Shown piece by piece: positions 7,887 to 47,610 of a stretch of 64,000 nucleotides of DNA. The stretch is from Owenia fusiformis (lineage: Eukaryota; Annelida; Polychaeta; Sabellida; Oweniidae): assembly GCA_903813345.2 (NCBI GenBank), contig CAIIXF020000007.1:9429730-9493729 (forward strand), written 5' to 3'. How positions within the stretch are numbered: position 1 is the first letter of the stretch; each line of letters begins with the position of its first letter. The translations under genes and the position numbers were made by a program. A model generated the notes under the pieces. The model worked only from the letters and a program-made list of their open reading frames with translations, was not told where the DNA came from and searched no databases.

Positions 7887-10790
7887 CACCTATTGTGTTG
7901 TTCAATATGGATTATATGCAATTTATTACTTATGGATTATACAGATTTAAATAATGAGATCAGAGTGAGCTGGAAATTCTATAAATAAATATATCAGTGT
8001 ATGGATAAACTTGTTTGCTCTGTTTGTGTTTTGAAATTGAAATAAAATCATTCACAATCAAATAATCGATGAGTGGCGAGTTGAGTGCCGTTTAACCAAC
8101 ATTTATTGTAAATTCTTTTACAGTTCAGCTAGAAGTTAGTTTACACATTTTGTTTACATATTCAATGGCCTTAAACATCGGTTGCATGATTAATTCTCAA
8201 AAAGTGTGTATAAATGAAGTACCTGCATGTACCCATTAAATATAGTTACATGCTTTATCTTACATAGAGAGTTATTTCATATTCAGACATATTTAAAGGT
8301 CCCATGAAATAAAACTCTTTGACTTACAGTGTTGTGTTACTCTTTGTAATCAAGATCTGATATATTTATTTCATAATCTTATTCTCAATATATTCTTCGT
8401 TCAATTAATTCTGGATAAGGAGTGACGAATTTCACACGATGAACTATCTAAAAAGTAAACTTTGTCTGTATTCATGAAAAATAAGATTTGGGGACGGCAA
8501 GGTGAATATGATTTCAATAAGAAGACGACAAACTAAATGTGAGGAGGAATTCTCTTGTGTTATTATTTTATTTATATATAAGTTGTTATATTCAGAAAGT
8601 CTTTAAAATTCTTATTTTTTACAATAAACCCTCGCATGGCATCACGGCGTTACTGCTTGACATAAAAACTGTGAAGAAATCTAGTAACCTAACCATAGGA
8701 TCTTTAACCGATTGTAACTTTTTAGAGGAGAACGCCTGTTGTTTTATGAGTGCATTTAAAATGACCCGAAGTACTCATGATGGCCAATAATAAAACTTAA
8801 ATATGGCAAACTCCACTGTATGGAGGGCTGTATTCATCGGTCATCTTTCACTGATTCTTTCACAGAATAACTAGATAGTTCACGAACCCATCTGCACCTT
8901 TCCACATGCAGCATGCAGGCTGTATATGTTATGATTATGTATCTTTAATTTAATGTGCTTATAGTTACCACTTCTACTTAATAGATATATTCTTCATTCT
9001 GGCCTCTGATTGGAAGAATAGAGAGAATGAATCTTTTCTGACTGAAAAGTATTAAAATACGCTGATAATAAGCCAGTAATTGTTAATTATAATTCATGGT
9101 CTGGATTTTCTCGTAGTAATTCAGAAACTGGTTTGACTACCTACAAGATATCTCCCTATATAAATAACTGTTCAAAAAGCCTTTGATATTTAAATTAATT
9201 GGTGGCGGTCTTTCAGTGTGCTGTTAATGTCTGCTCGCTAAAAAACTCGTTTTTATGTGAACTAAGAGTCCGTAGCCGGTTAGGGTAATTATATAGCGTT
9301 AAGGAGACAAATATTCCAGAATCATTCGGGTTCGAGGGGCTGAGGAATTCTTATCTTCGGGAGGACGAAGGGCCTTTGATCAGGTAATGATTATTTAAAT
9401 TAACAAGATACGATAACTAAGTGAAATCAGAATAATTTATATTTTAATGCATTAAGACTTGATGGGCTATAGTTTTAATATCAATATTTTATTTTTAGTG
9501 TGCATTTATATTTTTGTCATATAGGCTCAGGATTTTGAGTTTTGGTGTATTTTTATTTTCTTGGTGACATTCTACGAGTTATTAAAGTAACATTAGTTCC
9601 AATTGAAAGTTTTCAAGATTTTTCTTGTATCAAGATGGGATGGCAGAAAAAAAATTGACAGGTTACAAGCGTATACATATGAATTTGAAGTATACAGCTA
9701 ATCTTAACATGTTAATCTGACATATCGTGGTTTGAAAATGTACAATCGGTGATCGTAAAAAGTATATATTGCTAATAAATTAGTGGAATCAAATGGAACA
9801 GATTAGCTTATTGTTATTTACGATGTCGTATAATTAATGGCTTGAGTGCAACGTTAATTTAGAGATCGTTCGTTTTTGTGATTTAAGAGTCTATTCGTAC
9901 ATAGACAAACTCAATTAAATACATTCCCGATACATGCATTCTCGACTATGTGTATTGGTTCAACTTTTTTTTATTACTACTACAAGAAAATAGAAAAACA
10001 TGGTTGTGAATGTGATATTCTGTTGGCTATGATTGGGAACTTGATTTTTAAGAAGTTTATCGTCTGCAAAGCTTCTTACGAAAGCTGACACCATTTTCTA
10101 GACAGTGGATAGTTCAATAGTGAAAAATAGTCGATTAGTACTTTGTGCATAATAGGTAGACAGGAATGTGCGTGCTGAGGCAATTCTATTTATTCACGAC
10201 AGTTTGTAAAATTTTTGATTTATGGATTTATGCATAACTTCACGTATTATTAATTATGTATTAAGGAGGTTAAAGTGCACTTCACGTATTCTTAAGTATA
10301 GTTTTAAGAACGATAACGTACAATTTATTTATCTATTTTACACTCACATCGGCGTTGTTCAGACTATTAGTTAGTCCTGGGTTCTTAAATTTAAAATTTC
10401 TTGATATAAATTTGACAAATCAATTTTAGAAAAATTAGCTAAAAAGAGAAAGTATATAACTTTAAATAAAAGTGACCCTTGATGAACCCTGCGACAATTT
10501 TACACTACTACCGTAAGAGTATATTAATAAAATATATAAATCTTACTTTTCAAAAATAAAAAGCGTGTAAATAGCCAGTAAATTTTTTTAATGAATGACT
10601 AAATCGTTATCCTCATATGAATCCATATAGTTTCCCATTGACAGAACTAAATACCGCATAACTTAAATTCGAATAGGTTTAATACTTTATAGGTTACAAT
10701 TTTTCACACATGCTTAGATCTTTGGAAGCTATGTGCATGGTGCTTCTTCTTTGTGAGGATATCCACAAAGCTAGAATTTTAAAAAAAACA
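7887..10790. other. Intergenic, no gene recognised
   Basis: About 2.9 kb of AT-rich DNA. Near 8295 the words AAAGGTCCCATGAAATAAAACT look like part of a dispersed repeat. A GC-richer patch at 9240-9386 ends in CAG followed by GTAATG and could be read as a non-coding first exon, but nothing downstream supports it. No protein family is recognised on either strand. Confidence 0.5.
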
Positions 10791-20902: not shown

Positions 20903-20972
20903 ATGGCACGGACAACACTAGTCATAATAGCATTAATCTCAGGAGTAATATATACATCAGCACAAATTACAA
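20903..20972 (+). CDS. Exon 1: signal peptide
   Basis: The exon encodes M-A-R-T-T followed by a hydrophobic core ([15 protein letters not shown]) and QIT. Cleavage after the TSA is likely. It ends in phase 1 before GTAAGT. The ATG sits in CCACCATTGAGCCATGG, a fair Kozak context. No earlier in-frame start fits a secretory leader better. Confidence 0.88.
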
Positions 20973-23900
20973 GTAAGTATACATTTTACTCACAGTGCTG
21001 ATTACAAGTCAGTATACATTTTTGCAAGTTAAAAGTAAGCATACATTTAACACACCAGCACACGATACAAAAGTATACTTCTTGTCCATCAGCCCAAGTT
21101 ACAAGTAAGTATACATGTAACACATCAGTATAAATTACAAGTAAGGATGCATTGTACACACCATCACATGGTACAAGTAGTTATATATTTTGCACATGAA
21201 CACATGAGTACAAATCAGTATACATTTACACATTAGTACAAGTTACAAGTAAGTAAGTATATTTTGGGCATCAGTGCAGGTTACATACCAGTATACTTTT
21301 TGCACAATTTTACAAATAAGTATATGTTTCATATCACCACAGGTTACAAGTAGCGATACATCAATAGAATCAACTCTATAATTTACACATTAGCACGAGT
21401 TACAAGTAATTTTGTATACGTTTTGCATATCATTATAAGTTAGAAGGCAGTTAACATTTACACTCTAGCACAAGTTAAAATGAAGTGGCACATCAGCACA
21501 AGCCCAAATAAGAGATCAATACAAAAATCAATGTAGAATAATTCACTATAGTTAAGTCGCAGACACCCACTCTCTCCTTGTTGAATGGGAAATACTGACA
21601 CACCCGGTGTAAAAGGGTAGGAGTTCCTATCAAATTATGGTCCTACTTTCCATTGATTTATATGGTGACATAAATACAACTCTTTCCCTCATTATCATAT
21701 ACGCAATCGGGGCCAGTAAGGGCCTTTAAGAAAGGGGACCATAATCCCTTGGGGACCATCATTTCTTTCACACCGGCATTATTTTAAAAATGTTCAAATA
21801 CTACTGGTTGCAAATATTGTGCAATTGTATATCCAGTGGCATATTACTGAACTATATGTTAGTTATGTACGTTTACCGTATGCACAACAGCAGCGGTAAG
21901 CAACGGGTGAATTGTACACATAAGTACACGTGAAAAATAGGTTTCAAGTTTTAAGTGATTCACCCAAACAGGCTATATATGCTATATTCATAGCCCTGAC
22001 ACCTTAGTGGATAAAGAATACATTTTTCGGATTTATTTTCGGACTCCATTATTGGCAAATTTGTTTCAAAAAATGGAATGTTGAATTCCATTTCTAGTAA
22101 GCCTGGAAGTTTTGTGAGATTTGTGGAATAAAAGTACACTCCCCTCCATACGTTTTGCAACTGGAAGTTCATTCGATAGCGTATCAAAGACGGATGATGT
22201 TTGAATCTTAAATTCTGTAGTTTGTTCCTTACCCCCTATCACACCAAACTAGTTCTTACCCGTTCTTGCCAGTCCTACGAAAACGTCGTAAAACGGGCTC
22301 AATCTGGCTGTGGTCGGGAAATATGTCTGAAATAATTAGCTTCTTCGTTTTTAAACAGTCTGCAATACGTCCATCGCGTTCGCAGTTCGTTCAGGTCGCA
22401 CCACGTCGGTGTGCAACGTCGTAGAACGCGTCCCTTAGTCTAAAAGGTCAACATGACCTGATAACAGAACGGTATGGTCGCATCGAATTTTGAATCGATT
22501 CAAAATTCTAAAATCACATTCCCGTCTGAGAATGTTCATTAAGTTCGTAAATAGACCTTAGAAAGTTGCAGCTACGTTCATTCCGTTCGCACACAGTTTA
22601 AAACCAGTTTTGAAGAACGCAGTGGCAACTTGTTTGGTGTGATAGCTATATTTTTGCTAACTCGTTCATAAGCATTGTTAAATACGTTCTTAATCAGTTT
22701 AAACCCGTTTGCAATTAGTTCTACCTCGTTCTCAACACGTCCTCAGACAGTTCAACTCGTTGTTAAAACGTCCCTAGTGGGATTGAAGTACGACGGTTCC
22801 GTTCGTAGTACGTCCAGCTCGTCGTTAGTACGTTGTCACTCGTTCTAATTGTAGAACGTGACGACCACGAGAACATTTTGAGCATTGTCTAAGTTCTAGA
22901 GGACCTACCCGTTCGAGTACGTTCGATTAAGTTTGTAAATAGATCCCAAACGGTTCTTAGTAGGTCCAGTCCGTTCGTACACAGTTGAAGCCCGTTTTCG
23001 AGAACGTAGTGAGAACTAGTTTGGTGTGATAGTAGGGTTAATTAACAGTTCGGAAATTTATTACAAATTTAATGAATTTTATTTATTCAACATAAACATT
23101 CAACATAAACAGGCTTTGTGTTACAACTATTTTAATCTATCCGCTTGGTGAAATCTTTAAAATACATGTTACATGAATCTAGACTTTTATTTTACTTATT
23201 TTAGGCACATCGTGCGGTTTCGAAGGGTTAACTGCACAATCCTCGAGTATTTGCAGTGGTTGGACTCAGGCTACCAACGACGATGCTGATTTGACTGTCG
23301 GGCAAGGTGGTACCCCTTCTGGCAACACAGGGCCCTCTGGACCGAGATCAGGAAGTAAGTATTAAAATGATATAAAGAATGAAATCCACGACGGTTTTAA
23401 AGACAAAGTAGGCTTTTAAATTTATTTATGTGTGATTAGTTAAATTATTTTAAAGTTCTCAAAGGTGTACAGTATTTAAGGAATAAAGACCGAGATTTTA
23501 TGATTTATGGCGTAATATACACCGAACATTTTATTCTGTTTATTGTTAAAAGACCGAAATCGCGTAGCGATTGAGGTCTTTGGCAAAGACCAGAATAAAA
23601 TTTGAGGTCGTATATTTGACATAAATCATTAAATCGAGGTATTTGCTACGATTCTAATATGATAACCAGACAAGAAACACAACTATTTGCATATATTAGA
23701 ATTCAATATTTGCTTAATTTTGATTTTTTCATTAACCTTATACACGGGAAATTGAACGGTGGGTCAAGTGATATGCAATTTAACGCATTGTTTTTAACAA
23801 TTTATCATTTTGGGAATATGTCCAATTGAACACCTATTTTAGAACATATACAACTATTCAAGTTATAGGAGTAATACAGGGTGACCCAAAAAAAATGCAA

Positions 23901-26900
23901 CCCTCCATTTCTTCAATATTTTTCTTAAATGTAGGTAAATTGCTCTGAGATTTGGCACACAAGAACTTCATTCAATGTGGGATACTCTGGCAAAGTTTTA
24001 ATAACGTTAGTCTTATATTGATCGAGTTATGGTTGTTTCAAAATATGCTCCATATATCGTCAATTTCGCTGAAAACAAACTTGCAATGTTCAAGGAAAAC
24101 TGTTCATAACACGGATGCATTCTTCCCCATGGGTATGGCTCAAATTTTTGCAGGAATGCTTGTTGGAGTTCTGCAATTGCAGTAGGATTATTTTCATACA
24201 CATTATCCTTTAAATAACCCCATATATAGAAGTCAGGGGCATTGAGATCAAGACTGTGGGATGACCATGGGTTCTCCATCCTAGGAGAGATAATCTCATC
24301 ATAGAAATGACTAGTGAGCCAGGCTATGCTATGATAAGAAGTGTGAGGAGTAGCCCCATCCTTCTAGAATCACTGTTCTTGTCTATTGAAGCCTGTATGT
24401 CATTCTAGAACTGCCTAGAACTTCCTGGGAATGCCAATATTGCGCTGTGTGTTAATAGTAACAGTGTTGCCATTATCAACCTCAAACCAAATGGGGCTGA
24501 TGATTTCATGTTTGGAAATTGGCAGCCCAAGCTGTGCATTTAACAGAATGAAGGGGCCTTTGAAGCACTTCATCTTGGATTTGTGATCCCAGAACACATT
24601 ATTTCTTGAGTTTACATGTTCAGAAAGAAGGGAATGTGATTCTTCCGAAAACCTAACATTGGAAATGGACGACATTTGGAGCATATTTAGGAACGACCAT
24701 AACTCTATCAATATAAGACTCTGATTATTGAAACTTTGCCAGAGGATCCCACATTGAATGAAGTCCGTGTGTGCCAAATTTCAGAGCAATTCACCTCCAT
24801 TTAAGAAAAATATTGAAGAAATGGAGGGTTGCATTTTTTTGGGTCACCCTGTAACATTATTTTTGCACATTACATGGCCACTGGCACATACCTCTGCTGC
24901 AAAATTAGAGGTATGTGCATGGAAAAGTTGATTTGATTTTAAAATAGCCCACTTGTACAAATGTGGTCCCAGATGAAAACTAGTTCTGTACATATTTCAG
25001 GTAGATATGGCTACTTTGAGGCAACGGACGTCACAGAACCAAACAAACGTGCACGAATAATTTCACCAACTTTACTAGGAACTGGTTATACCTACACTGT
25101 TTCCTATGGTTACCATATGTTTGGGAGTCATATTGGACGCGTTCGAGTTTATACAAGACAAGGAGGATCTCTAAGTGAAGTTGTAGCGGCAAGACGCGAA
25201 GGTAGACCCTTTATAACTACTTACAAAAAAAACAGATTTTACTATTTATCTCATTCCGGGACTATTGTATTGCATTGTATTATGGACTGTATTGTATTGT
25301 CTCTTTATTTCCACCTATTTAAGAAGATTAACAAATTACTTAAAAGATGTATAACTTATATTAACTGTACTACTGCTTTTTAGCCCAGTTTCATTAAGTT
25401 ATTTATTAAACAAAACTATCTTTCATTGAATGGATTTGTATTTATGACGTATCCACGTTAAGCTGGCAATGGAAATTTGTCATTTGTCATACTCCGATTT
25501 ATTTCCTAGAAACTTTGTCATGAAAATATTTGTATTTAATATTACACAGTGTTATGATGCGATTTTAGGCCAGCAGCAGACAAGTAGCAATGCTGAATGG
25601 GGCTTGTCAACGGCGACCCTGCCTTCGATTAATGGAAATTTCGAGGTGGTCATTGACATTGAGAACGGCGTAAATCCAGACCAAGGTAATGACCACCCTT
25701 TCCAGGGAGATATCGCACTCGATGACATCAATATTCAAGGAAGCACCGGGGGCGGTGACACTGGCAGTGGAGGTTAGTGCTCGCATAATATATATAAAAA
25801 TACAACAAATGATAAATGTAGATTAGAACTTGAATAATTTATTTGGAGGTACTATCTTAGCATTATTATAGACTAGGTAGCGTCATAAGATCTCAAATAC
25901 ACACAATGAATTTCCAAAATAGTAATGACATATTAATACAAAATTAAATGAGCTGAATAATCATTCAAATGTGAATTCATCAATACTTTCTTTTTCATCC
26001 CCAATGCACTCGTTCTATTTTAAAACGGTGAGTAAAATATCAAACTGCATTTACTGCATGAGCATAAACTCCATACGTCATAATACTGACGTGGTTTGTG
26101 ATTATCTGTGTGTATATCACTGCTCTCTAATACCAAAGCTATTTGCTTTAATTCCAATGCAAAACTGTTCACTTATCAGTTACAATAGCATGCTGTTGTC
26201 TGCTTTCGGTACATCGTTTGCCCTTTTGATGCATCACGAAATCCAAATTATGGATTGTATGCAAAAAAATGACGAACGAAACGCTTCAAGCAAACACGAA
26301 TGCAGATTTTGCTACCCCTTATCCCATAGTTTTCAAAAATTGTACTCATTAATTAACCAGCAGCCATACTGGCTGGATTATTTTCCATTGGAGTGGGACC
26401 TCGATGTCCTACACCAACTCTTCGGAAACAAAAAACGTTAAGAAAACATGTTTGCATTGGAAATGTTATCAAATCTGATTGTTTGAATCACGTGACGTGA
26501 GTATCTTGCATGGTTGCACTGAATAATTTTGTGTGATTATAACAAACTAATAATATGGGTAACGGAATGATACAATAATAATGAAATCATGGATGATTTC
26601 TTTAAAATGGGCACCATGTTTAATCACATAACCATTGCTAAGCTTTTGACAAATTTTGATTACCTATCATTTGAGACGATAATTTTTTTTGTATGACATT
26701 ATGTTCTACAATTTTGATTTGTGTTCTCTAATTATATGATGTGTGCTTCTAATCCTGATACCTGATTATGGTAACATATGCTCTATATTTGGGTAATACC
26801 CAGGTCATTTAACCTAGGCCCTGGTATATTATGTTAATCTAATACCCAAGGCGAGGTCTTGATTGTAAAAGTCAAGCCTTTAGGTAAGATAAGTAATAGA

Positions 26901-29900: not shown

Positions 29901-32900
29901 ATCTTTCGAATGCAGAGCTGCAGACATCATTTACTTTGTTGCTTCCTTGTTCGGTCTTAAGGAAGAATGAAGGATATCTATGACTCTGCTTTCAAATGTT
30001 ACATAACAGAGAATTGGAAGCTGAGCAGTATATAACAGAATTATATTCCTTTGTACTCTTTGTTAAGGTACATGTGGCGAGATTGCCGACATCGTATTTA
30101 TTGTGGATGAATCGGGTAGTATCGATAACGAAAGTTTCCTTCAAATGCGAAGTTTCTTGTCCACCGTTGTTAGCCGATTCAATATTGGAGAAGAACTGGT
30201 CCGTATTGGAATAATGACATTCTCTAACCAAGAGAACATACGAGCAAGGGTTAATTTGAATGAATACGTGGCCAGTGATATACAGGATACCATAAGGACC
30301 TGGATTAGGGGAGATCTCGCTGCCACTGCTATCTCAGATGCCTTGGAATTTGCTCTGAATACGATGTTTCAGGAAGCCAATGGAGATAGGCCCAATGCCC
30401 CTAATCTAAGTGAGTACAACATTTAAAGAAATTGAGTGATGAATTGATTTTTAATTGTTCATTTATGAGGGTAACTGTATACGTATTAATAAATGCTTCA
30501 ATAATAGATCAAGTAATACACATACATGTAGGATCTAGTTCAGTTGAAGTTGTAACGCGATGCTCGTGCTTCCTACAATTATACATTCATTGTATAGTCG
30601 AGAACCTTTCTCAACATCTCTGGGATATAATTGGATAACGTAGAGCTAGAATCAATTAGACCCCTGTAATAGCCATCAAAACCGAGCTTATATCTATATA
30701 ATTGTTTCCAGTTATTTTTATCACTGATGGCGAGTCAAACCCGAAAGAAGATGCAAGGCTCCAGCGAGTGACTGATGACGTGCGTGCGCGGGGCATAACT
30801 GTGTTTGCTATTGGTGTTGGTACTGAGGTAGGCACTATTAGACAATAAAATAAAATAATAAACACCCTAAATCATCATCTTACAAGAGAAAATGCTGATT
30901 TCTGCATTTACTTTGTTGGTTCCATTGCTGACCTTATTTTACTTTTGTATTCCTTCAATGGCATGGTGAAATTAGTATCTGGTATCTGAAATGATATTTA
31001 GAATGACATGAGTGAAGAGTGAAAGCTGGGATAAAGTTTTTTGAAAAGTACATTGATCCGGTGTGAAAGAAATGATGGTCCCCAAGGGATTATGGTCCCC
31101 TTTCTTAACGGCCCTTACTGGACCCGATTGCGTATATGATAATGAGGGAAAGAGTTGTATTTATGTCACCATACTGCACCACTGGATAACGTTAGTCTAG
31201 AAACTCGCTAATCCCAGCGTCCTATGCATTGCCTTGATTAGTAGATTTTAGAAATCTCTTTATCCAGTTCTGCCTATGAGATTAGCTGGGATTTGAATTA
31301 TTGATCAGATGTGTTAGATTCGGGTGAGCGAATATATGCATTTACATAGTCAAAATAAAAATGATAGAATTTTTTAGTCCGACTGTATGTGACCATTAAT
31401 GTGTATACACTATATTTGTTCAGATCAATGAAGGTGAACTTCGACTTATGGCTACAGACCCCGATAGAGATCATTTATTCAATGTAACAAATTTCGAGAG
31501 TTTGAACCAGATTTCTCAAGCTCTAGTAGAGGCTTCGTGTGAAACTAGTAAGTAGAAACGTTCTATCCCATAGTTACCTCATTAATATTTAATATAGTTG
31601 TGATCGATCGTAATGAGAAATATAATCTTTTTCCGGCTCTTGCTTCGTTACATCATGTGGTTTCAAGCCTCGTAAAAGCTTGGTTCCCTTTAGACTAAAA
31701 GCAGTGCACAGTTCTCAATTTCTAAAGGTTGTTCGAGCTACAAGTGAATATATAAAAAGGAAGCGATCAGACTACCAGACTGGTTTTAGTTCAAATGTTG
31801 AAATTTAAGTAATTATGGACAATCAATATATAATTCTCGTTTGGCTTTTTAATGGTAAACTTTGACGAGTGGATTATTTTGTGTTTCAGCCTGCCCTGGA
31901 CCAGCTGATGTAGCCCTTCTAGTTGATTTATCAGGAAGTATCGGCCAGACTGATTTCGAAACACTTAAAACTTTCCTGAAAGATTTAGTGAAGAAGTTTA
32001 CTGTTGGACCAAATAACAATCAATTTGCAGGTAAATGTTAATCCAGGGAATGAAAAAAGTTGGTTAGCGCTTGAACACCTTGAAAAGATCTTTAATGTCC
32101 ACAGTACTTTGGTCTCTTTCTCCAACATTCATTCGGATAGATGAAACGTCTGATACACATCGGACATAGCAGTCAAGTCAAGTAACTAATTCAACATTCG
32201 ATATTCGTATGTTCATCAATATTTATTACTAAGAATGGTGCCACATTTTAAGTAAACCTCTTGTTGATTATTTTCAGTATACCTATCAGCAAACGTGTAA
32301 ATGATAATTTTGATGTTCTGTTAAATATTGTTGAAGCCACCAAATTTCTGAATTTCACTATGTCCTTGTTACCCCTTCTTCAAGAGATGTATGTTATTTG
32401 TCATTTTTCATTATGAACCAACCATATCTTTTCTTGTTTACATATCGAATGATCTTTCTGTTTTCGAATATTGACAGATGGTACTGCATTTATTTTTCAT
32501 GATATGGAGCAAACAAATACGTGTTGATTTACACTGTAATATCCTACATACTCAAGAAAATCCATGTTTTCAAATGGATTCATCCTTGTCAAAGAACGTA
32601 AATGAGGCAATGCCGTTTGAAAAACTAACAGCATGTTTCAAGTTCTTACATATGTTGGTTAAAACAAATATTTTGAAAGTTGTAATTTCGAATGTAATCT
32701 CCTACTCAATGAAAATTGTTGATATTTTCTGAATTTTTTCTTTCGGAATACACTGCACATTGCTGAATCACAGAACCTCTTGTTCGAGTTGCACGAAAAG
32801 TGTATTATTAATACTTGGCGTCGTTCGAATATTTGGATGTGATAGACGTTTTCAGTGATCTCCTACCACTGTTACGTCCAACTTAAATCTTGAAAGCCAA

Positions 32901-35900
32901 ATATGATAGTCACGAATTGATATTTAAGTCACCCGTTGATGCATACATCATATGTGTACATTAACTGTCGAATAAATGCTAACTTACATTTATATGATTA
33001 TCCACAGTTTGACTCAAATCATCAATGCTCGAAACGGTTTATCATATAACCTGGTGAGTTTAATGTTTCATTTTAATTTATAGGATTTGAGTATGATTTT
33101 AGTTGAGGCTTAAACAAAGAATTTTTCAAGAATCCTCCCTCAAAGCAGAGACATATAAAACATAAAAATAATAGCGGGTAGTTTGAATTTCTAAATTCAA
33201 AAACATATCGCCTCGTTGAGAGGTGCATACAGATTTTGGCGATCTATCATGATAAAAGGCTAAATATTGTGAAAAACACGAGTTGACAGGCTGGCATTTG
33301 GAATTGAAATTTCCTACAGAATTGTCCACTCATGTTTAAAAGTCATGTAAATGAGGTTGAACTTTAAACATCGTCCCAGTTACTGTCTATTTAGCATGGG
33401 ATCACTCAGAGAAATATTATTAATGACTTAAATCGTTAACAGTTATGTTGTATTCCAAGAAACTTATCAATTTAAAAATGCAAAATGTTCAATTTTGTTT
33501 TTCAATTATAAAAAAATGGCACCTGTGGAGAACAACGTTTGCAAAATTATTTAAAACGGAGATATTTACTTAATAATATGTAACATTCGTTGGCATGAGT
33601 CAGCGAGTAAAAAAGAAGAACATGCTTTTGATTCTATATCTTGTTCCTGGTGCCAGCGGTATATCTTAACGTACGTTTGTCATCCCGAACTCAAACATTT
33701 CGAATACTTATTTCGCGAACACTTTGTTGAGAATGGATTCTAGATGTACTCAAAATTAATACGTTAAAATGTGTATTATCATCTTAATAACTACCTCACA
33801 AATTATTTTGGAAATCAAAGATGTACGATTTTTTGAGATTTTTATTTTAGAATGTTGACTTAGTTACTTGACTTGACTGATAGATGAAAATAAATGTGTG
33901 TTAATTTCTCTTTTGGTCATGAGAATGCAAGCTAAGGGTCCTGGAACACATCTGGACAATTCACTTTAACTACCTTCATATTGCCATTTCAAATTTCAGC
34001 TATATCATTCAATGACAATACAAACATTGACTTCTACCTTGATTCATACTCAAATGTTGACGATGTTGTGAATGCGATTGAAGCACTGCAGTATACAGGA
34101 GGTGCAACAAATACGCAAGATGCTCTTCGTAGAGCCAGGTATGGATGAGAAAATAGTTTAATATTTTGAGATGGCCGTCGCTGTACCTTCTACAGTTTGG
34201 ACCATAAATAAATGAGTAGTCAATGTTCTATCACCATTTCCAAACCTTGTGGTTTGAAAGCCCATAGTTTCAATATTGTCTAGATACATGTTCTCTAAAT
34301 CTTAATAAATCTTATTAATATTTTATGCATTTTGACTGCAGACGCACCTTAATATTTTTAGTGTGCCACTGATATTAAAGTGTACGTCTTGACAATAAAT
34401 AAATAAATAATAAAATATCCTATTTAAAATCACGTTAGATTCTAAAAACTACAGATTTTCCTGGACCTACTATACTCCTCGATAATATGTCTATATAAAG
34501 TTCTATAACCCTACTATCACACCAAACTAGTTCTCACTACGTTCTCGAAAACGGTCTTCAACTGTGTACGAACGGACTGGACGTACTTAGAACCGTTTGG
34601 GGTCTATTTACAAACTTCATCGAACGTACTCGAACGGGTAGGTCCTCTAGAACTTAGAACATGCTCAAAATGTTCTCGTGGTCGTCACGTTCTACAATTA
34701 GAACGAGTGACAACGTACTAACGACGAGCTGGACGTACTTCGAACGGAACCGTCGTACTTTAATCCTACTAGGGACGTTTTTACAACGAGTTGAACTGTC
34801 TGAGGACGTATTGAGACCGAGGCAGAACTAATTGCAAACGGGTTTAAACTGAGTAAGAACGTATTAAAGACTACTTATGAACGAGTTAGCAAAAATATAG
34901 CTATCACACCAAACAAGTTGCCACTGCGTTCTTCAAAACTGGTTTTAAACTGTGTGCGAACGGAATGAACGTAGCTGCAACTTTCTAAAGTCTATTTACG
35001 AACTTCATGAACGTTCTCTGACGGGAAGGTGATTCTAGAATTTTGAATCGATTCAAAATTCGATGGCGACCATACCGTTCTGTAATCAGGTCATGATGAC
35101 CTTCTAGACGAAGGGACGCGTTATACGACGTTGCACACCGATCGTGGTACGACCTGAACAAACTGCGAATGAGATGGACGTATTGAAGACTGTTTATGAA
35201 CGAAGTAGCTAATTATTTTAGAGATATTTCCCGACCACAGCCAGATTGGGCCCGTTTTACGACGTTTTCGAAGGACTGGCAAGAACGGGTAAGAACTAGT
35301 TTGGTGTGATAGGGGGGTCACATTAAAAATGTCTAGGTGGAGTGCCAGGAACAGGTTTATGTTTGGTGCTTTATCTACAAATACTTACAACATACTTTGA
35401 AGAAACTACATGTATACAAACTAAACTTAAAACAAACGTCCCGGTCAATTATATCTCCTACTAATCTATTCAATGCAAACGTATGTCAAAGAACAACCTA
35501 ATACATTTGAATGATTTATTAAGGACTGAGGTACTTATCAGCTCAAGGGGGGCTCGTATTACTGTTCCAAAGGTAGTGATCGTTGTGACTGATGGTGTAT
35601 CCACGGTACGATATGACCGCACGCTGCCCGAGGCCCTTGAACTCAGAATCAGTGGAGCAACTATATTTTCCATTGGAATCGGTAAAGAGGTAAGATATAT
35701 GACAGATCTACAAGAAGGCCCAAAAGACGCCACTTTTTTAGAAGTGACATTACCTTTTTGTAACTTCTTAGCTTAAATACATGACATAATTTTGCAGCTA
35801 TATAGACAAGTGGGCTAGTGATCTCAGGAATAAACCATTTCATGAAAAAATAAAACAGTTCAGTTGCGTTACTTTAAAAAAGCACTTTGTAGAGCCGCCC

Positions 35901-38900: not shown

Positions 38901-41900
38901 CCCCCCATGGGCTAAAATTTGGACCCCTACTATATAATTGGGCAAAAACTCAAAAAATACTCAGTGGAATGTTTCCAAATTACTAAGTTATATTGGTATA
39001 GGCTAACTGAATGTATGATAAAAAATTCATGTCACATGGTTAACTGGTTACCATGGAAATGGATAAAACATGCCCTTCGGGTGTCAATTTTCAGGCCAAT
39101 TTTTCAGGACTGACAGAGTCATTTCATGCATATTTTGTCACCAATGTGTTAGGAAGGGTTAAAATGTCAATAGAAAACTTCTATAATATATAAGCAACAA
39201 TTGTATGTAAAGATCAGTCCACAAAACCTCAGATTTTGGCCTTGTATTGGTCCATGACTTATACAGGGGTCTATTTCATAGACTCGAGCTCCCACATTGG
39301 ATGGATGCTATAACTTTTGAAATAATGGAGATACAGGTCTCATGTTTTCAGATCTTCATAAATGGTTAGTTTTAAGTATTTTATTTTACTTTGGGAGCTG
39401 ACATGTGATGGGTTGCCATGGTAACCAGGGTTTTAGGGAAATTCCGACCCCCACATTGGATGGATGCTATAACTTTTGAAATAAGGGAGATACAGGTCTC
39501 ATTTCTTCAGATCTTCAGATCTTCATAAATGGTTGGATTTAAGTATTTTAATATACATTTGGAGCTGGTGTATGATTGGTTGCCATGGTAACCAGGGTTT
39601 TAAGGAAATCCTGACCCCGACATTGGATGGATGTTATAACTTTTGAAATAAGGGAGATTCATGTCTCATTTTTTCAGATTTTTGACAATGATTGATTTAA
39701 AGTATTGATTTAGACTTTGGGAGCTGAAATTTGATTGGTTACCATGGAAATCAGGGTTTTGTTGAAATTCAGACCTCCACAATTGATGAGCACTATAACT
39801 CTTAAATACAGCCAGATAAGATAATCTTTTCAGATGTAAGATAATAATAATATGTGTGTATTGTATTAGACTTTGGAAGCTAGGATTTATTTGTCTGCCA
39901 TGGTAACCATGTTTCATTGTCATGGTAACTGCTGTTTTCGTTTTCAGATTCACCTTTATTCTAGATAGGTCAATACATGACATGAAATACCAAATTGCTC
40001 AAAGTTACCATTTTATTCTTAATTTTGTTTTTTTTCTATTTTATATGATTTACATGCTCATGACTCAATAATACTAGAGATGCAAACATTGTTTGGCTCA
40101 TAAAATATCAAATACTAGTGAACAATACATGTATGTCTTACAATATTGCCTTATTCCATACGACTAGTTCTTACAAAAGTTCTGACTCCCTAATTTGTTC
40201 ATTTGAACTCATCATTACTGTTTTCATTTAGCACAATTTCCGCTTAACATCAATTTCTGTTGGAATGAAGGATTGTTTTGACCATTCTGGAGATAAGGAA
40301 CCTCAGGGGATATAGTCCATTCATGCAGTATTGGACTTGGCAGAATGGGTTAAGACTGGTCCCTGTGGGTTCACTGTATATAAAATTGGCTGGGGTCCAA
40401 GGCTGAACCCTCAGATATCAATATGTTCCCATCCAATCTGTCAAATTTGAATGTGTTCCGATATCAACCAAAATAATGCCCAAAAGCCATACCAAATGCC
40501 CAAATATATGACCAGTGCCATACCAAATATCCAGATATGAAAACATGGCCATTCAAAATTTCTAATGCCTCGAGAAGAAGGCAGATCATTGAGGAAAACA
40601 ACCAAAAACAACCTCACATTAAGGATATACTAGATCAATGCCATACATGTGCAACAAGTGAGGGGCAACATATTTTTCACAACCATTCCCAAATCCGACC
40701 ATTGCTATACCTCTCAAGTCATAATTTGGAGAGCATTCTCTTACCAGATCCTAAAATTTGGGTCCATTGCCATATCAAATGTCAAAAGTAACCCACCTGA
40801 GCTGAGGATCCCCTCAAGGTTTATATACAGTGAACTCCTGGGAAACGGGGGGGGGTAATGTTTCCACTTCCAAATATAAGTTTTATCATCCATCCTCTTC
40901 AAATGTTATAATGAGCAATCATTACAAGATGGAAGAGTTCATCATTTAATTCATTGCATTATATTAGCTGCTATGAAAGCAGTCAAGGACCAATCTTGAA
41001 AGATGGGAAGAGTTGAAATGTCAACACCTCCATAAGTGAGGGCAGGACTGTTCTGTTTTGGAGAATATCTTATGTGAAACAGCTCATATTGTTATCTATT
41101 GATGTAAGTTCCAAATATATTTTTGTTATTCTGCTGTACTTTTACTGGTGAACAATTCAACTTTGGATTTTATTGTGTCAGGAATTTCTATATTGATTCC
41201 TATTATGAAGAAAATAACCTTAAGAACCTCAACTGATGTGAACTCTGTCCCATTAGATGTCAGAAGCTCAACCCAACCCCTGTAGCTGCAAACCTAGGTC
41301 CTGTGTGAAGCTATATTAGCCTTCAATGCGTTTACTGGATCAGATTCCTCCAGTGCAGAAATACAACAAAACAGCAGAAATAGAAAAATAACTGCCACTA
41401 ATAGATTACGAGATGAGCTGTTTCCCATGAGATACAGAAAAAAACAGAACAGTGCTGCCCTCACTTATGAAGGTGTTGACATTTTCTTTCACATTTGAAG
41501 AGGGTAAATTATCAAACCTATGTATGGACACATTCCCACCAGCCTAAACCCAGCTCTACCATTATGCCCAACACTGCATGAATGAACTGTGAATTCCCCG
41601 ACGAATCTTTAACACAAGAATGGTCAAAAGAATCCTTCTTTCCCATAGAAATTGTTGATATTTTTAATTAAGAGGCAATTGTGGAAGATGAAAACGATAA
41701 TGATGAGTAAAAACAAGTTGGGAGTCTGAATATGTGTGAGAACTAGTAGAATGGAATGAGGCTATACTGTCAGACAAACAGGATAAATTGCTGAAATAAA
41801 GAGCAAAATGATAATTTTGAGCATTTTGGTATAAAATGTTGTGAATTGACCATTCTCAAATGAAGGTAAGACTGAAATAAAAAATTAGGGGTACCATGAC

Positions 41901-44168
41901 GATAAAACATGGTTACCATGGCAATCAAGTAAATGCCATGCTACAAAGTCTAATTCAATACACAAATCTAATTAATTTTTAAGATCTGAAATGATGATAT
42001 CTGTATCTGCTTGAATTCAAACGTTAAAGCATTTATCAATTGAGGAGGTCCAAATTTCAATAAAACTCTAGTTACCATGGTAACCAATCGAATTTCAGCC
42101 CCCAAAGTCTAATTTAATATTTATAATCAATCATTGTCTAAGATCTGAAATAATGAGACATGTATCTCCCTTATTTCAAAAGTTATAGCATCCATCCAAT
42201 GTAGGGTCGGAATTTCCCTAAAACCCTGATTACCATGGCAATCAATCATATGTCAGCTCCCAAAGTAAAATAAAATACTTAAAACTAACCATTTATGAAG
42301 ATCTGAAAAAATGAGACCTGTATCTCCATTATTTCAAAAGTTATAGCATCCATCCAATGTGGGAGCTCGAGTCTATGAAATAGACCCCTGTATAAGTCAT
42401 GGACCAATACAAGGCCAAAATCTGAGGTTTTGTGGACTGATCTTTACATACAATTGTTGCTTATATATTATAGAAGTTTTCTATTGACATTTTAACCCTT
42501 CCTAACACATTGGTGACAAAATATGCATAAAATGACTCTGTCAGTCCTGAAAAATTGGCCTGAAAATTGACACCCGAAGGGCATGTTTTATCTATTTCCA
42601 TGGCAACCAGTTAACCATGTGACATGAAATTTTTATCATACATTCAGTTAGCCTATACCAATATAACTTAGTAATTTGGAAACATTCCACTGAGTATTTT
42701 TTGAGTTCTTGCCCAATTATATAGTAGGGGTCCAAATTTTAGCCCATGGGGGTAAAATGGCCACAAATTCTAAAAGCTGAAAAACTAAGATCTAATAATC
42801 CATACAAATATGTATAATCATAGTAGTAACATGAAAAATGATGTCCCATAAAATCCCTCTGAACGCACGCCGAAACCCACATTCTGACTGCACTATTCCG
42901 ATCTCGAGCAATTTATGACACCGTTTAGAAGTAATGTTACTTCTATACTGAATTTATTATGTATTTTAGATGCTAGAGAATGCGATTCCAACCCATGTCA
43001 GTCAGGTGGACAATGTACCAGCGGTCTTAACTCCTATACGTGTGCGTGTACAAGTGGAAGATCTGGTGTAAACTGCGAACGAAGTAAGTGAACGCTTGAA
43101 ATCAGTATACCAGCTGGTATTATATTAAGTCCTCGTGTAATAAGATATTATACTCAATAAGAAAGAATTAGTCTAGCTACAAGCCCAAGTCCCTCGTCTA
43201 CTCAACTAAACACCTAGTAGTGGCGAGGAGGTCACGAGGGTTGTAGCTATTGTAGCTAGACTTAAACCGAATGGACAATATTCATTTAACATATTCTTTC
43301 GCACAACATTTTGAAGACCAACTAAAAGAACAAAGGGGATTTTTCTTAAAAGCCCAGGAAGAATATCAATCATTTCCAAACGTTAGAACAATTAAAAAGA
43401 CATATATCATTTTTTTCTTTTAACCAACTTGTACTCTTGTTTTATTCATAAACTGCTGATTTTAGTTTAGTTTCGGAACTCTAAACAAATTGTGTTGCCA
43501 TGGTGTCCTGAAACTCAAATGACCCTGGGAGTGGAACAATATATCTGAGATCTAAAATTGTTATTGTGATCATAATTATATCCATTTATCTGTTTACAGG
43601 TTGCAATGTTAGGACCGACCTTGTATTCATGATCGACACCTCTGGCAGCATTGGCCAAGATAACTTCTACACCATGCTTCTCTTCATACAAGACCTAGTA
43701 CAGAACCTTGAAATTTCCAACGGGAATGTAAGGATTGGCGCTTTCCTGTTCTCCGATCAAGCTCGAAAAGTTTTCGATCTTAACACTTACACGACAAACA
43801 AAGGAGAGATTCTTAATCATATTGGAGCCATTGAATATGATAAAGGAGCCACAAATACCCCAGCAGGATTTGAGATGATGAGAAGTATGTTCCAGGCGGG
43901 AAATGGTGCTCGCGGTGGAGTACGCCGTATTGGACTTTTAGTAACTGATGGAAGACCAACTGTTCGAGAATTTGAAACATCAGACCAGGCAAGAACCACA
44001 AAGGATCAAAATATTCGCCTCGTCTCTATCGGTATTGGGAATGAACTTGACCAGACCCAATTAAATGACATGTCATCTCAACCTTCTTCCAGCAACGTTT
44101 TTAGAGTTGCCGATTTTGCTTCTCTAGATTCCTTGAGAGAACAAATATCTGTTCTATTATGCTCTTAG
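20903..44168 (+). CDS. Secreted MAM / 5xVWA / 2xEGF protein, 19 exons
   Basis: Exons: 20903-20972, 23205-23354, 25001-25201, 25569-25772, 27846-28100, 28599-28697, 29246-29482, 30068-30409, 30712-30827, 31424-31547, 31890-32030, 34000-34138, 35524-35689, 35990-36110, 37188-37301, 37518-37868, 38334-38549, 42970-43083, 43600-44168. All introns are GT-AG, phases agree at every junction, and the sum is 3729 nt (1242 codons plus stop). Order: signal peptide (about 1-20), MAM (27-197), VWA1 (210-403), VWA2 (407-597), VWA3 (600-786), calcium-type EGF (789-825), VWA4 (828-1014), EGF (1017-1052), VWA5 (1055-1240). All five VWA domains keep the metal-binding DxSGS box and the later TDG Asp. There is no membrane segment or GPI signal, so the protein is probably an extracellular matrix or adhesion protein like matrilin or collagen VI; no exact orthologue is claimed. 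Most module-bounding introns are phase 1, as expected from exon shuffling. Confidence 0.92.
20955..21500 (+). repeat. Minisatellite of the exon-1 splice donor
   Basis: The exon/intron boundary words ACATCAGCACAAATTACAA then GTAAGTATACAT are repeated many times in degenerate form down intron 1. Examples lie near 20990-21020, 21093-21115, 21122-21150, 21225-21255, 21270-21300 and 21395-21410. Units are roughly 40-60 bp and vary in length. Several retain TTACAAGTAAG, an apparently good donor site, so the intron begins with decoy 5' splice sites copied from the real one. Confidence 0.8.
21661..21776 (-). repeat. 116-bp repeat, inverted relative to 31058-31173
   Basis: It contains GGTGACATAAATACAACTC, CTCATTATCATATACGCAAT and CTTGGGGACCATCATTTC. 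The other copy lies in intron 9 in the opposite orientation and is nearly identical. No termini or coding sequence are seen. Confidence 0.9.
22236..23032 (+). mobile_element. Composite inverted-repeat element, copy 1 (~797 bp)
   Basis: It starts CTATCACACCAAACTAGTTC and ends GAACTAGTTTGGTGTGATAG. A further GTTTGGTGTGATAG end lies inside near 22634-22647, so the element is two hairpin units (about 412 and 385 bp) fused. The interior is unusually dense in CGTTC/GAACG and ACGTC/GACGT words on both strands. A second, inverted copy is at 34514-35312. There is no transposase; the superfamily is unknown. Confidence 0.85.
23205..25772 (+). CDS. Exons 2-4: MAM domain
   Basis: Exons 23205-23354, 25001-25201 and 25569-25772. 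Landmarks of the family are SCGFEG at the start, [22 protein letters not shown], then [20 protein letters not shown], a [20 protein letters not shown] block and, at the end, [22 protein letters not shown] and [10 protein letters not shown]. All boundaries are phase 1. A Gly/Ser/Thr-rich linker ([11 protein letters not shown]) leads to VWA1. MAM domains mediate homophilic or heterophilic adhesion; the partner here is not known. Confidence 0.93.
23482..23646. repeat. Foldback hairpin in intron 2
   Basis: The arms are about 57 bp each (23482-23538 against 23590-23646), sharing CAGAATAAAAT and ATAAATCAT words in inverted orientation. A smaller nested hairpin (AAAGACCGAAATCGC with GCGATTGAGGTCTTT) forms the tip. 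Confidence 0.7.
23877..24851. mobile_element. Mariner-like element, 975 bp
   Basis: The termini are CAGGGTGACCCAAAAAAAAT and its inverse, with TA target duplications at 23875-23876 and 24852-24853. Inverted repeats run about 190 bp inward. The minus strand at 24279-24013 encodes the end of a DDE transposase ([19 protein letters not shown], then [12 protein letters not shown]). The gene is not complete, so the element is non-autonomous. It lies in intron 2 and is probably harmless to splicing. Confidence 0.88.
25773..27845 (+). other. Intron 4 of the MAM/VWA gene, no second gene recognised
   Basis: A 156-codon open frame at 25971-26441 is long for this base composition but shows no domain, has no splice or promoter context, and is treated as chance. 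A 14-bp perfect stem (CGTAAAATCCCTAC with its inverse) lies at 27102-27160. Near 26800-26880 there are short inverted words around GGTAATACCCAGG. Confidence 0.5.
27846..29482 (+). CDS. Exons 5-7: VWA1
   Basis: Exons 27846-28100, 28599-28697 and 29246-29482. The MIDAS pieces are DFSGS, the threonine of GSTNLAGGL and the Asp of CITDG. The domain ends in [12 protein letters not shown] and a TCK cysteine. Introns interrupt just before GSTN and just before the TDG strand, both phase 1. Exon 5 has two acceptors six bases apart (TTCCAG, then CTTTAG), which would add or drop two residues. A MITE ends about 35 bp before exon 6. Confidence 0.92.
28338..28563. mobile_element. Short MITE (~226 bp) next to exon 6
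   Basis: The ends CGGGTGGCCCAAAAATCCAA and an inverse ending TTTTTGTCATCCTG, with CCTCCATTTC near the left, mark a short, internally deleted relative of the 23877-24851 family. It ends about 35 bp before the exon 6 acceptor, so it may supply part of the branch-point region. Confidence 0.65.
30068..31547 (+). CDS. Exons 8-10: VWA2
   Basis: Exons 30068-30409, 30712-30827 and 31424-31547. DESGS, the Thr of AATAISDAL and the Asp of FITDG form the MIDAS set. FAIGVGTE is split from [10 protein letters not shown] by a phase 0 intron. The same intron, at the same place and phase, occurs in VWA3, which suggests that VWA2 and VWA3 arose by tandem duplication. The domain starts and ends with the usual paired cysteines (STCG and ASCET). 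Confidence 0.92.
31058..31173 (+). repeat. 116-bp repeat, second copy
   Basis: The inverse of 21661-21776, located in intron 9. It starts CCGGTGTGAAAGAAATGATG and ends GTATTTATGTCACCATA. The high similarity of the two copies suggests recent dispersal or a shared parent element. Confidence 0.9.
31890..36110 (+). CDS. Exons 11-14: VWA3
   Basis: Exons 31890-32030, 34000-34138, 35524-35689 and 35990-36110. [15 protein letters not shown] and VVTDG form the MIDAS set. This is the most interrupted of the five VWA domains, with introns in phases 1, 2 and 0. The phase 0 intron after SIGIGKE matches that of VWA2. The domain ends AICNG and runs directly into the EGF exon. Introns 11 (2.0 kb) and 12 (1.4 kb) hold no other gene; intron 12 holds the second composite inverted-repeat element. 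Confidence 0.92.
32031..33999 (+). other. Intron 11, nothing recognised
   Basis: AT-rich sequence with no clear repeat termini and no conserved coding frame on either strand. Confidence 0.5.
34514..35312 (-). mobile_element. Composite inverted-repeat element, copy 2 (~799 bp)
   Basis: This is the reverse complement of the element at 22236-23032 with only scattered differences, including the internal end at about 34902 (CTATCACACCAAACAAGTTG). It lies in intron 12, so exons 2-12 are bracketed by an 800-bp inverted pair. Confidence 0.85.
35705..35905. mobile_element. Short MITE (~200 bp) in intron 13
   Basis: GGCCCAAAAGACGCCACTTTTTT on the left and AAAAAGCACTTTGTAGAGCCGCCCTGTAT on the right are diverged inverted termini of the family seen at 18794-19396. 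There is no coding content. Confidence 0.55.
36386..37170 (-). mobile_element. 5'-truncated LINE, C-terminal ORF2 fragment
   Basis: The minus strand from 37165 to 36854 encodes about 103 residues with the zinc-binding motif common after the reverse transcriptase of many LINEs ([18 protein letters not shown]) and ends YLARIGVN. The 3' region runs down to an (ATT)n tract at about 36386-36401, which is an (AAT)n tail on the element strand. The reverse transcriptase itself is missing. The 5' truncation point falls only about 20 bp before the acceptor of exon 15. The LINE clade is not determined. Confidence 0.68.
37188..37301 (+). CDS. Exon 15: calcium-binding EGF domain
   Basis: A symmetrical phase 1-1 exon encoding [16 protein letters not shown] then [14 protein letters not shown]. 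It has six cysteines, and the DVDE start with the later Y/F position fits a cbEGF. It links VWA3 to VWA4. Confidence 0.95.
37518..38549 (+). CDS. Exons 16-17: VWA4
   Basis: Exons 37518-37868 and 38334-38549. [14 protein letters not shown] and IITDG form the MIDAS set. A single phase 1 intron falls inside the TDG codon for Gly. The second exon reads [14 protein letters not shown] and ends IADPICNG, much like the end of VWA3. Confidence 0.94.
38760..42893. mobile_element. 4.1-kb foldback element in intron 17
   Basis: The ends are GTGCAGTCAGAATGTGGG and its exact inverse, flanked by TA on both sides (38758-38759 and 42894-42895). The outer arms (38760 to about 39985 and about 41870 to 42893) are very similar over their outermost 400-500 bp. 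The inner arms are more diverged but still pair, for example 41009-41093 with 41400-41485. So nearly the whole 4134 bp is one imperfect palindrome centred near 41.2 kb. The left arm has four ~165-bp tandem modules, the right arm three, and the left arm also has an extra stretch at about 40380-40800. No transposase was recognised. The TA duplication fits a Tc1/mariner or related mechanism, but this is inference. Confidence 0.88.
39293..39960 (+). repeat. Tandem modules (~165 bp x4) with X-box-like palindromes
   Basis: The module is ACATTGGATGGATGCTATAA, GGGAGATACAGGTCTCAT, then GTTGCCATGGTAACCAGGGT. X-box-like sites are at 39412-39426, 39579-39593, 39738-39752 and 39894-39908. The inverse modules in the right arm have sites at 41912-41926, 42071-42085 and 42229-42243. 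The module word order is kept but the spacing drifts. Confidence 0.8.
42970..43083 (+). CDS. Exon 18: EGF domain
   Basis: A phase 1-1 exon encoding [16 protein letters not shown] then [16 protein letters not shown] with six cysteines. The calcium-binding start is weaker than in exon 15. It is preceded by a 4.4-kb intron that is almost all foldback element. Confidence 0.94.
43600..44168 (+). CDS. Exon 19: VWA5 and C-terminus
   Basis: A complete VWA domain in one exon. [14 protein letters not shown] and LVTDG are intact, the [12 protein letters not shown] end is typical, and the reading stops after LLCS. It is the only one of the five VWA domains with no intron. There is no C-terminal membrane anchor. 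Confidence 0.95.
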
Positions 44169-47011: not shown

Positions 47012-47610
47012 TAGTAATCTTCCGGACAGATATAGCTGTTCTACCAATGAATGTTTTTGAGTCATGATATAGTGTTCCGGACAGATATAGCTGTTCTACC
47101 AATGTTGTTGAGTCATGATATAGTGTTCCAGACAGATATAGCTGTTCTAACAATGTTTTTGAGTCATGATATAATGTTGTTGAGTCATGATATAGTGTTC
47201 CGGACAGGTATGGCTGTTCTTCCAATGTTGTTGAGTCATGATATAGTGTTCCGGACAGATATAGCTGTTCTACCAATGTTTTTGAGTCATGATATAGTGT
47301 TCCGGACAGGTTTAGCTATTCTCCTGGAATGTTTTGAATCGTTATATCGTGATCCGGTCAGACATAGGTATTTCACCCTTGTTAATAGTAATTATAGTGT
47401 TCCTGACAGGTATAGCTATTCTCCTGGAATGTTTTTAATCATGATATCGTGTCCCGGTCAGACATAGCTACAATGTATTCCTCATTTGTTTTTAGTTATA
47501 TGATGTGTTCCGAACATGTATAGCTATTCTTCCATTTTTGAGTCATGATTAGTATCCTGGCGAGATATGTATTCTTCATGACATAGTGTTCCGGTCGGGT
47601 AAAGCTACTC
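47012..47610 (+). repeat. 51-bp minisatellite
   Basis: The unit is GTTCCGGACAGATATAGCTG, TTCTACCAATG, TTGTTGAGTCATGATATAGT. At least five good units are followed by diverged ones. Since 51 is a multiple of three, both strands carry long open frames with 17-residue repeats, which are not taken as genes. Confidence 0.92.

Follow-up and report, generated by a model that had tools for sequence, protein, structure and literature searches.

A degenerate minisatellite spanning an exon 1/intron 1 boundary in a predicted secreted MAM/vWA protein gene of Owenia fusiformis and in its paralogue

In the annelid Owenia fusiformis, the first intron of a gene predicted to encode a secreted MAM/vWA protein opens with a tandem array whose units resemble the very splice boundary that the array adjoins, which raises the questions of whether the array was made from that boundary, when this occurred, and what the repeated splice donors mean for the message. 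The locus lies in a 64,000-nucleotide stretch of DNA that was analysed as a whole (hereafter, the window; GC content 31–38%), which belongs to contig C7 of a 498-Mb genome assembled in 525 contigs. The gene begins at 20903 and reads rightward, with a signal-peptide-like exon followed by exons predicted to encode MAM and vWA domains; six open frames, translated and scanned against Pfam, returned the MAM domain once and the vWA domain five times. We infer exons 1 and 2 from the sequence (Table 1): the 23-residue peptide of exon 1 is, as judged by eye, likely a signal peptide, and the exon 1 frame joined to that of exon 2 reads ...SAQITSTSCGFEG....

Other repeats are found in the window. An inverted pair (22232-23040 and 34506-35316; 95% identity over 811 columns) occupies two introns of the host gene and is probably a non-autonomous element. 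Two open frames on the minus strand within intron 2 (24013-24780) look like a mariner-type transposase broken into pieces. The stretch containing the vWA exons holds two tandem arrays (39291-39788 and 41913-42360) built from one unit of about 158–167 bases, which runs in opposite directions in the two (471 columns aligned at 81% identity), and a 51-base tandem array lies at 47020-47470, where periods of 72, 100, and 123 bases are reported too.

Table 1. Features of the host gene and of the array in intron 1, in window coordinates (a slash marks the exon/intron boundary).
Feature	Position	Strand	Basis or remark
Exon 1, coding part (inferred)	20903..20972	+	ATG at 20903; ends in phase 1
First array unit	20951..20990	+	last 22 bases of exon 1, donor CAA/GTAAGTAT, and intron beyond
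Likely real 5′ splice site of intron 1, GTAAGT	20973..20978	+	phase fits exon 2; GTAAGT donor in paralogue too
Intronic remainder of array	20991..21486	+	some 15 degenerate units, each about 36 bases long
In-frame TGA	20999..21001	+	translation from ATG 20903
Best-kept extra donor, CAA/GTAAGT	21105..21110	+	9-mer identical to that of the real donor; donor scan
Second kept extra donor, internally duplicated (GTAAGTAAGT)	21249..21258	+	donor scan
Exon 2 (inferred), start of mature protein	23205..23354	+	continues exon 1 frame; GTAAGT directly after

The array is continuous from 20951, inside exon 1, to 21486, as delimited by cyclic alignment to a 36-base unit (score 384, where the highest of 30 dinucleotide-preserving shuffles scored 44), and thus covers more than 500 bp of intron 1 at the place given in a preliminary description of this DNA. 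Tandem Repeats Finder independently found 6.5 copies of a 36-base unit, with 66% matches, at 21025-21255. The units are degenerate, successive ones starting 27 to 40 bases apart and being about 72% alike on average, and in this detail the preliminary description is considered overstated. The majority consensus of the intronic units agrees with the boundary (20955-20986) at 31 of 32 bases; it was taken from 14 window units from 21025 onward (the last one partial) that had been aligned to a typed consensus, which could favour the agreement slightly. Among 126,658 other 32-mers of the window on both strands, the best reaches 24 of 32. The exonic part alone (20955-20972) agrees with the consensus at 17 of 18 bases, a score reached by 0 of 63,363 other plus-strand 18-mers of the window. 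The consensus of Tandem Repeats Finder (21025-21255), which contains no boundary sequence and whose match is free of the typed consensus, agrees with 20955-20983 at 28 of 29 bases (1 mismatch).

A whole-genome search for the 29-base core, tolerating as many as 3 mismatches, gave at least 5 matches, 2 in the window array (boundary included) and 3 in the array of a paralogue (see below), and a reversed 29-base control pattern gave 0 matches; the counts are lower bounds and, as very common words were skipped in this search, no proof of rarity. By the consensus match and this pattern search, the boundary is a unit of the array: the end of exon 1 and its donor are repeated in it, as the preliminary description had claimed. 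The observation that it had named against itself, an unrelated repeat resembling the boundary by chance, is not what either comparison returned; with a background that stops at 24 of 32 and a core found genome-wide only in the two arrays, chance resemblance can be set aside as vanishingly improbable. Nor is there support for derivation of the unit from a dispersed repeat or transposon, as the 29-base pattern was found in just the two arrays by a search that skipped very common words. On its sequence, the array is in structure a boundary-spanning minisatellite, in which the unit holds exonic and intronic sequence of one boundary.

The paralogue lies on the minus strand of contig C10, where its ATG ends the match at 36219416. 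It resembles the host gene in exon 1 (92% DNA identity over 87 bases) and in exon 2, where a 54-residue stretch is 70% identical and the exon falls within a 193-column alignment of 81% DNA identity. Its intron 1 also opens with an array like that of the window; the cyclic alignment starts at base 49 from the ATG, as it does in the window, the score is 425 (vs. a maximum of 31 in 30 shuffles), and the units are spaced 25 to 44 bases apart. Four consecutive units of this array are repeated at an offset of 177 bases with 94–100% identity, and the array is interrupted by a 139-base insertion (bases 287-425 from the ATG). The inserted sequence recurs in the window at 21604-21752, just past the window array, in opposite orientation and with 86% identity, and at 31082-31154, where 73 bases align at 89% identity; these three copies look like a MITE.

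Between units, mean identity is 0.718 for the window array, 0.721 for the paralogue array, and 0.711 when units of the two are paired (first units, units shorter than 24 letters, and pairs with under 20 columns in common being omitted). Such values are expected if the units had diverged by the time of the gene duplication and no homogenisation followed. Expansion of the array thus seems to predate duplication of the host gene, after which, apart from the 177-base duplication, the array seems mostly to have decayed. Between window and paralogue, two intron stretches past the array align at 73% identity, and shorter array pieces at 65% to 89%; of the two longest array alignments, one takes in exon 1 and is at 72%, and the other takes in about 100 flanking bases, pairs units partly out of register, and is at 66%; given the content of these alignments, the comparison of rates between array and flank is rough. 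A third gene (C7:13607596) has an exon 2 that is 60% alike, and neither a matching exon 1 nor an array was recognised in the 20 kb surrounding it; there are three weaker exon 2 matches besides.

The preliminary description suggested that downstream donors could extend the leader in frame, and what lies just past the first donor bears directly on this proposal. Translation from the ATG meets the TGA after 9 sense codons past the donor, ahead of the donor of the second unit (21008), and the only GTs between the real donor and this stop are at 20977 and 20995. In the paralogue a different stop, TAG, is met at bases 79-81 from the ATG, after 3 sense codons (SKY). Use of the donor in any later unit would thus be predicted to truncate the reading frame. 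The nominal unit of 36 bases is a multiple of three, and the paralogue array is partly open in one frame for 126 codons, both as leader extension would have it, but the stops precede the second donor here and, differently, in the paralogue, and unit spacing varies at both loci; the proposal is thus contradicted, unless an extra splice inside the array were to skip the stop, and is rated very unlikely. The open frame of the paralogue (8555-8935 of locus L004, minus strand) reads STSAQVTSKNT..., the same unit frame as the TSAQITSK of exon 1, from which a stop separates it.

The preliminary description also held that each copy can carry a plausible donor, which proved too generous. In 512 intronic bases of the array (20975-21486) GTAAG occurs 5 times, where 500 shuffles yield a mean of 0.9 and never more than 4; GTAAGT occurs 3 times but in two units, a pair of the occurrences overlapping; and ACAAGTAAGTAT occurs once. 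The paralogue array has 5 GTAAGT in 787 bases. Scored with a donor matrix, 2 array sites equal the real donor, and 248 background pieces of 512 bases (array included) contain a mean of 0.08 and a maximum of 2 such sites. The unit that holds the best-kept extra donor starts at 21095 and is like the consensus at 33 of 36 positions. Together the two loci have 36 intronic units, stubs counted, of which 34 show a letter at each of the two GT positions; GT is retained in 27 of these 34, and splice signals are thereby repeated in many, not all, units, as is the case in boundary-spanning minisatellites.

A cluster of such sites might be kept by selection, the units serving as decoy donors or as a U1-binding cluster that tunes splicing or shields the pre-mRNA from early polyadenylation. 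The enrichment of GTAAG and the presence of the array in both gene copies are consistent with this idea, as is the computed pairing with the U1 snRNA of this genome: the U1 5′ end was ATACTTACCTG in the 5 of 12 loci read from that end (the other 7, on the opposite strand, showed the other end), and CAA/GTAAGTAT pairs with it except at position −1, at −8.2 kcal/mol vs. −14.0 kcal/mol for a perfect complement. Intact GTAAGT sites are nevertheless few, just two sites match the strength of the real donor by the matrix used, and copying alone accounts for the enrichment of GTAAG. Conservation of the donor core depends on the alignment. When 36 intronic units, three of them stubs, are placed on a fixed frame of 36 columns, the 11-base core scores 0.832 vs. 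0.833 for the rest, rank 19 of 36 rotations; in a MAFFT alignment limited to the 33 intronic units of 24 bases or more, which seems anchored on its middle and would therefore favour the core, the values are 0.828 vs. 0.761 (rank 5 of 26), with AAGTAAG at rank 2 of 30 and GTAAG alone at rank 14 of 32. GT ranks 7 of 35 dinucleotides in conservation, and many of the units entering these comparisons are non-independent. The alignments disagree and the effect is small, giving no reliable sign of selection on the donor core and leaving weak constraint possible; the earlier suggestion of decoys or a U1 cluster thus keeps the modest excess of the MAFFT alignment in its favour and loses to the scarcity of intact donors and the lack of core excess in the fixed alignment, and maintenance of the array by selection of this kind appears improbable. 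A cluster of U1 snRNA genes, mostly about 750 bases apart, lies at C9:23745153-23771556 and accounts for 34 of the 42 U1 matches scored, a number that is itself a lower bound.

Two further readings differ in what they make of the direction of events and of the lasting presence of the array. The array may have come first, an upstream donor having been lost and the first unit captured as the end of the exon. No outgroup speaks against such a capture, and the third gene, with its similar exon 2 and no matching exon 1 or array recognised in 20 kb, lends it some colour; the argument against it is that a single unit would have had to supply the end of the signal peptide, the right phase, and a donor at once, whereas seeding by the boundary requires just one tandem duplication, and capture is considered unlikely. 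Alternatively, the units could recruit U1 or act as unproductive donors, forming a poison-splicing brake on both paralogues that was kept through gene duplication, which we regard as quite improbable; in a variant read by eye, the segment from CATCAG to CAA/GTAAGT of a few units would be a 12-base in-frame microexon that skips the stop. The donors seem to have decayed since the gene duplication at about the pace of the remaining unit, although on one of the two alignments weak constraint is conceivable.

We favour, as probable, a boundary-spanning minisatellite that was born before the gene duplication, has since decayed, and has its first donor still in use. About 36 bases, 18–22 from the end of exon 1 and roughly 18 from the start of intron 1, would have been duplicated in tandem, most simply via replication slippage or unequal exchange, and would have expanded to about fifteen copies within intron 1 ahead of the host gene duplication; both gene copies would have inherited the array, with units decaying about as fast as the intron around them, and one internal duplication and one short-element insertion would have followed in the paralogue. 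That the boundary came first and the array second is the simplest, though unproven, reading. The first donor (20972/20973) is most likely still spliced, because it is intact and a stop is met beyond it, and occasional use of a downstream donor would introduce that stop and probably target the message for degradation. The array itself would most likely be a neutral relic. It is a modest natural experiment on the fate of repeated splice donors, which may be tolerated, used, or selected, and is a caution to gene predictors that strong donors can be tandemly copied.

The locus represents a new case of an exon/intron boundary turned minisatellite, in which the array shared with the paralogue seems to date the expansion to before the gene duplication; it is judged to be an old, degenerate member of a class that includes amphioxus “mirages,” the human ABCA7 VNTR, and IFI6. 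Repeats seeded by a splice boundary, called unusual in the preliminary description, are perhaps uncommon and yet have precedents, in amphioxus (PMC3087553; PMC3902484) and in human ABCA7 (PMC5954066). The amphioxus mirages, described for Adh3, the globins BflGb6 and BflGb9, troponin C, and PGBD5, are tandem repeats that span an exon-intron boundary and have splice signals in many copies; regular splicing is reportedly undisturbed, the clusters are unstable in length, and BflGb6 units are 81–100% alike (PMC3087553; PMC3902484). The present array likewise includes an exon-intron boundary and has splice signals in many units, but it lies at the boundary of exon 1, is common to a paralogue, and has units that are about 72% alike; the low similarity of the units suggests, for the one assembly analysed, low present activity. 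The VNTR in intron 18 of human ABCA7 begins at the splice donor of the exon, with a 25-base unit, 23.7 repeats in the reference, and a highly variable length of about 12 to 427 units, and when the donor one unit further in is used, a single unit is retained and the frame is lost (PMC5954066). Here too the array begins at the donor boundary of an exon and use of a later donor is predicted to break the frame; the ABCA7 VNTR starts at the GT, however, whereas the present array also spans 22 exonic bases and is degenerate. In human IFI6 (6-16, G1P3) the minisatellite repeats supply several donors, and two downstream units are reportedly used as such (PMC4526556); in the Owenia array any such use would be predicted to insert a stop, and productive in-frame use is contradicted by the TGA at 20999-21001.
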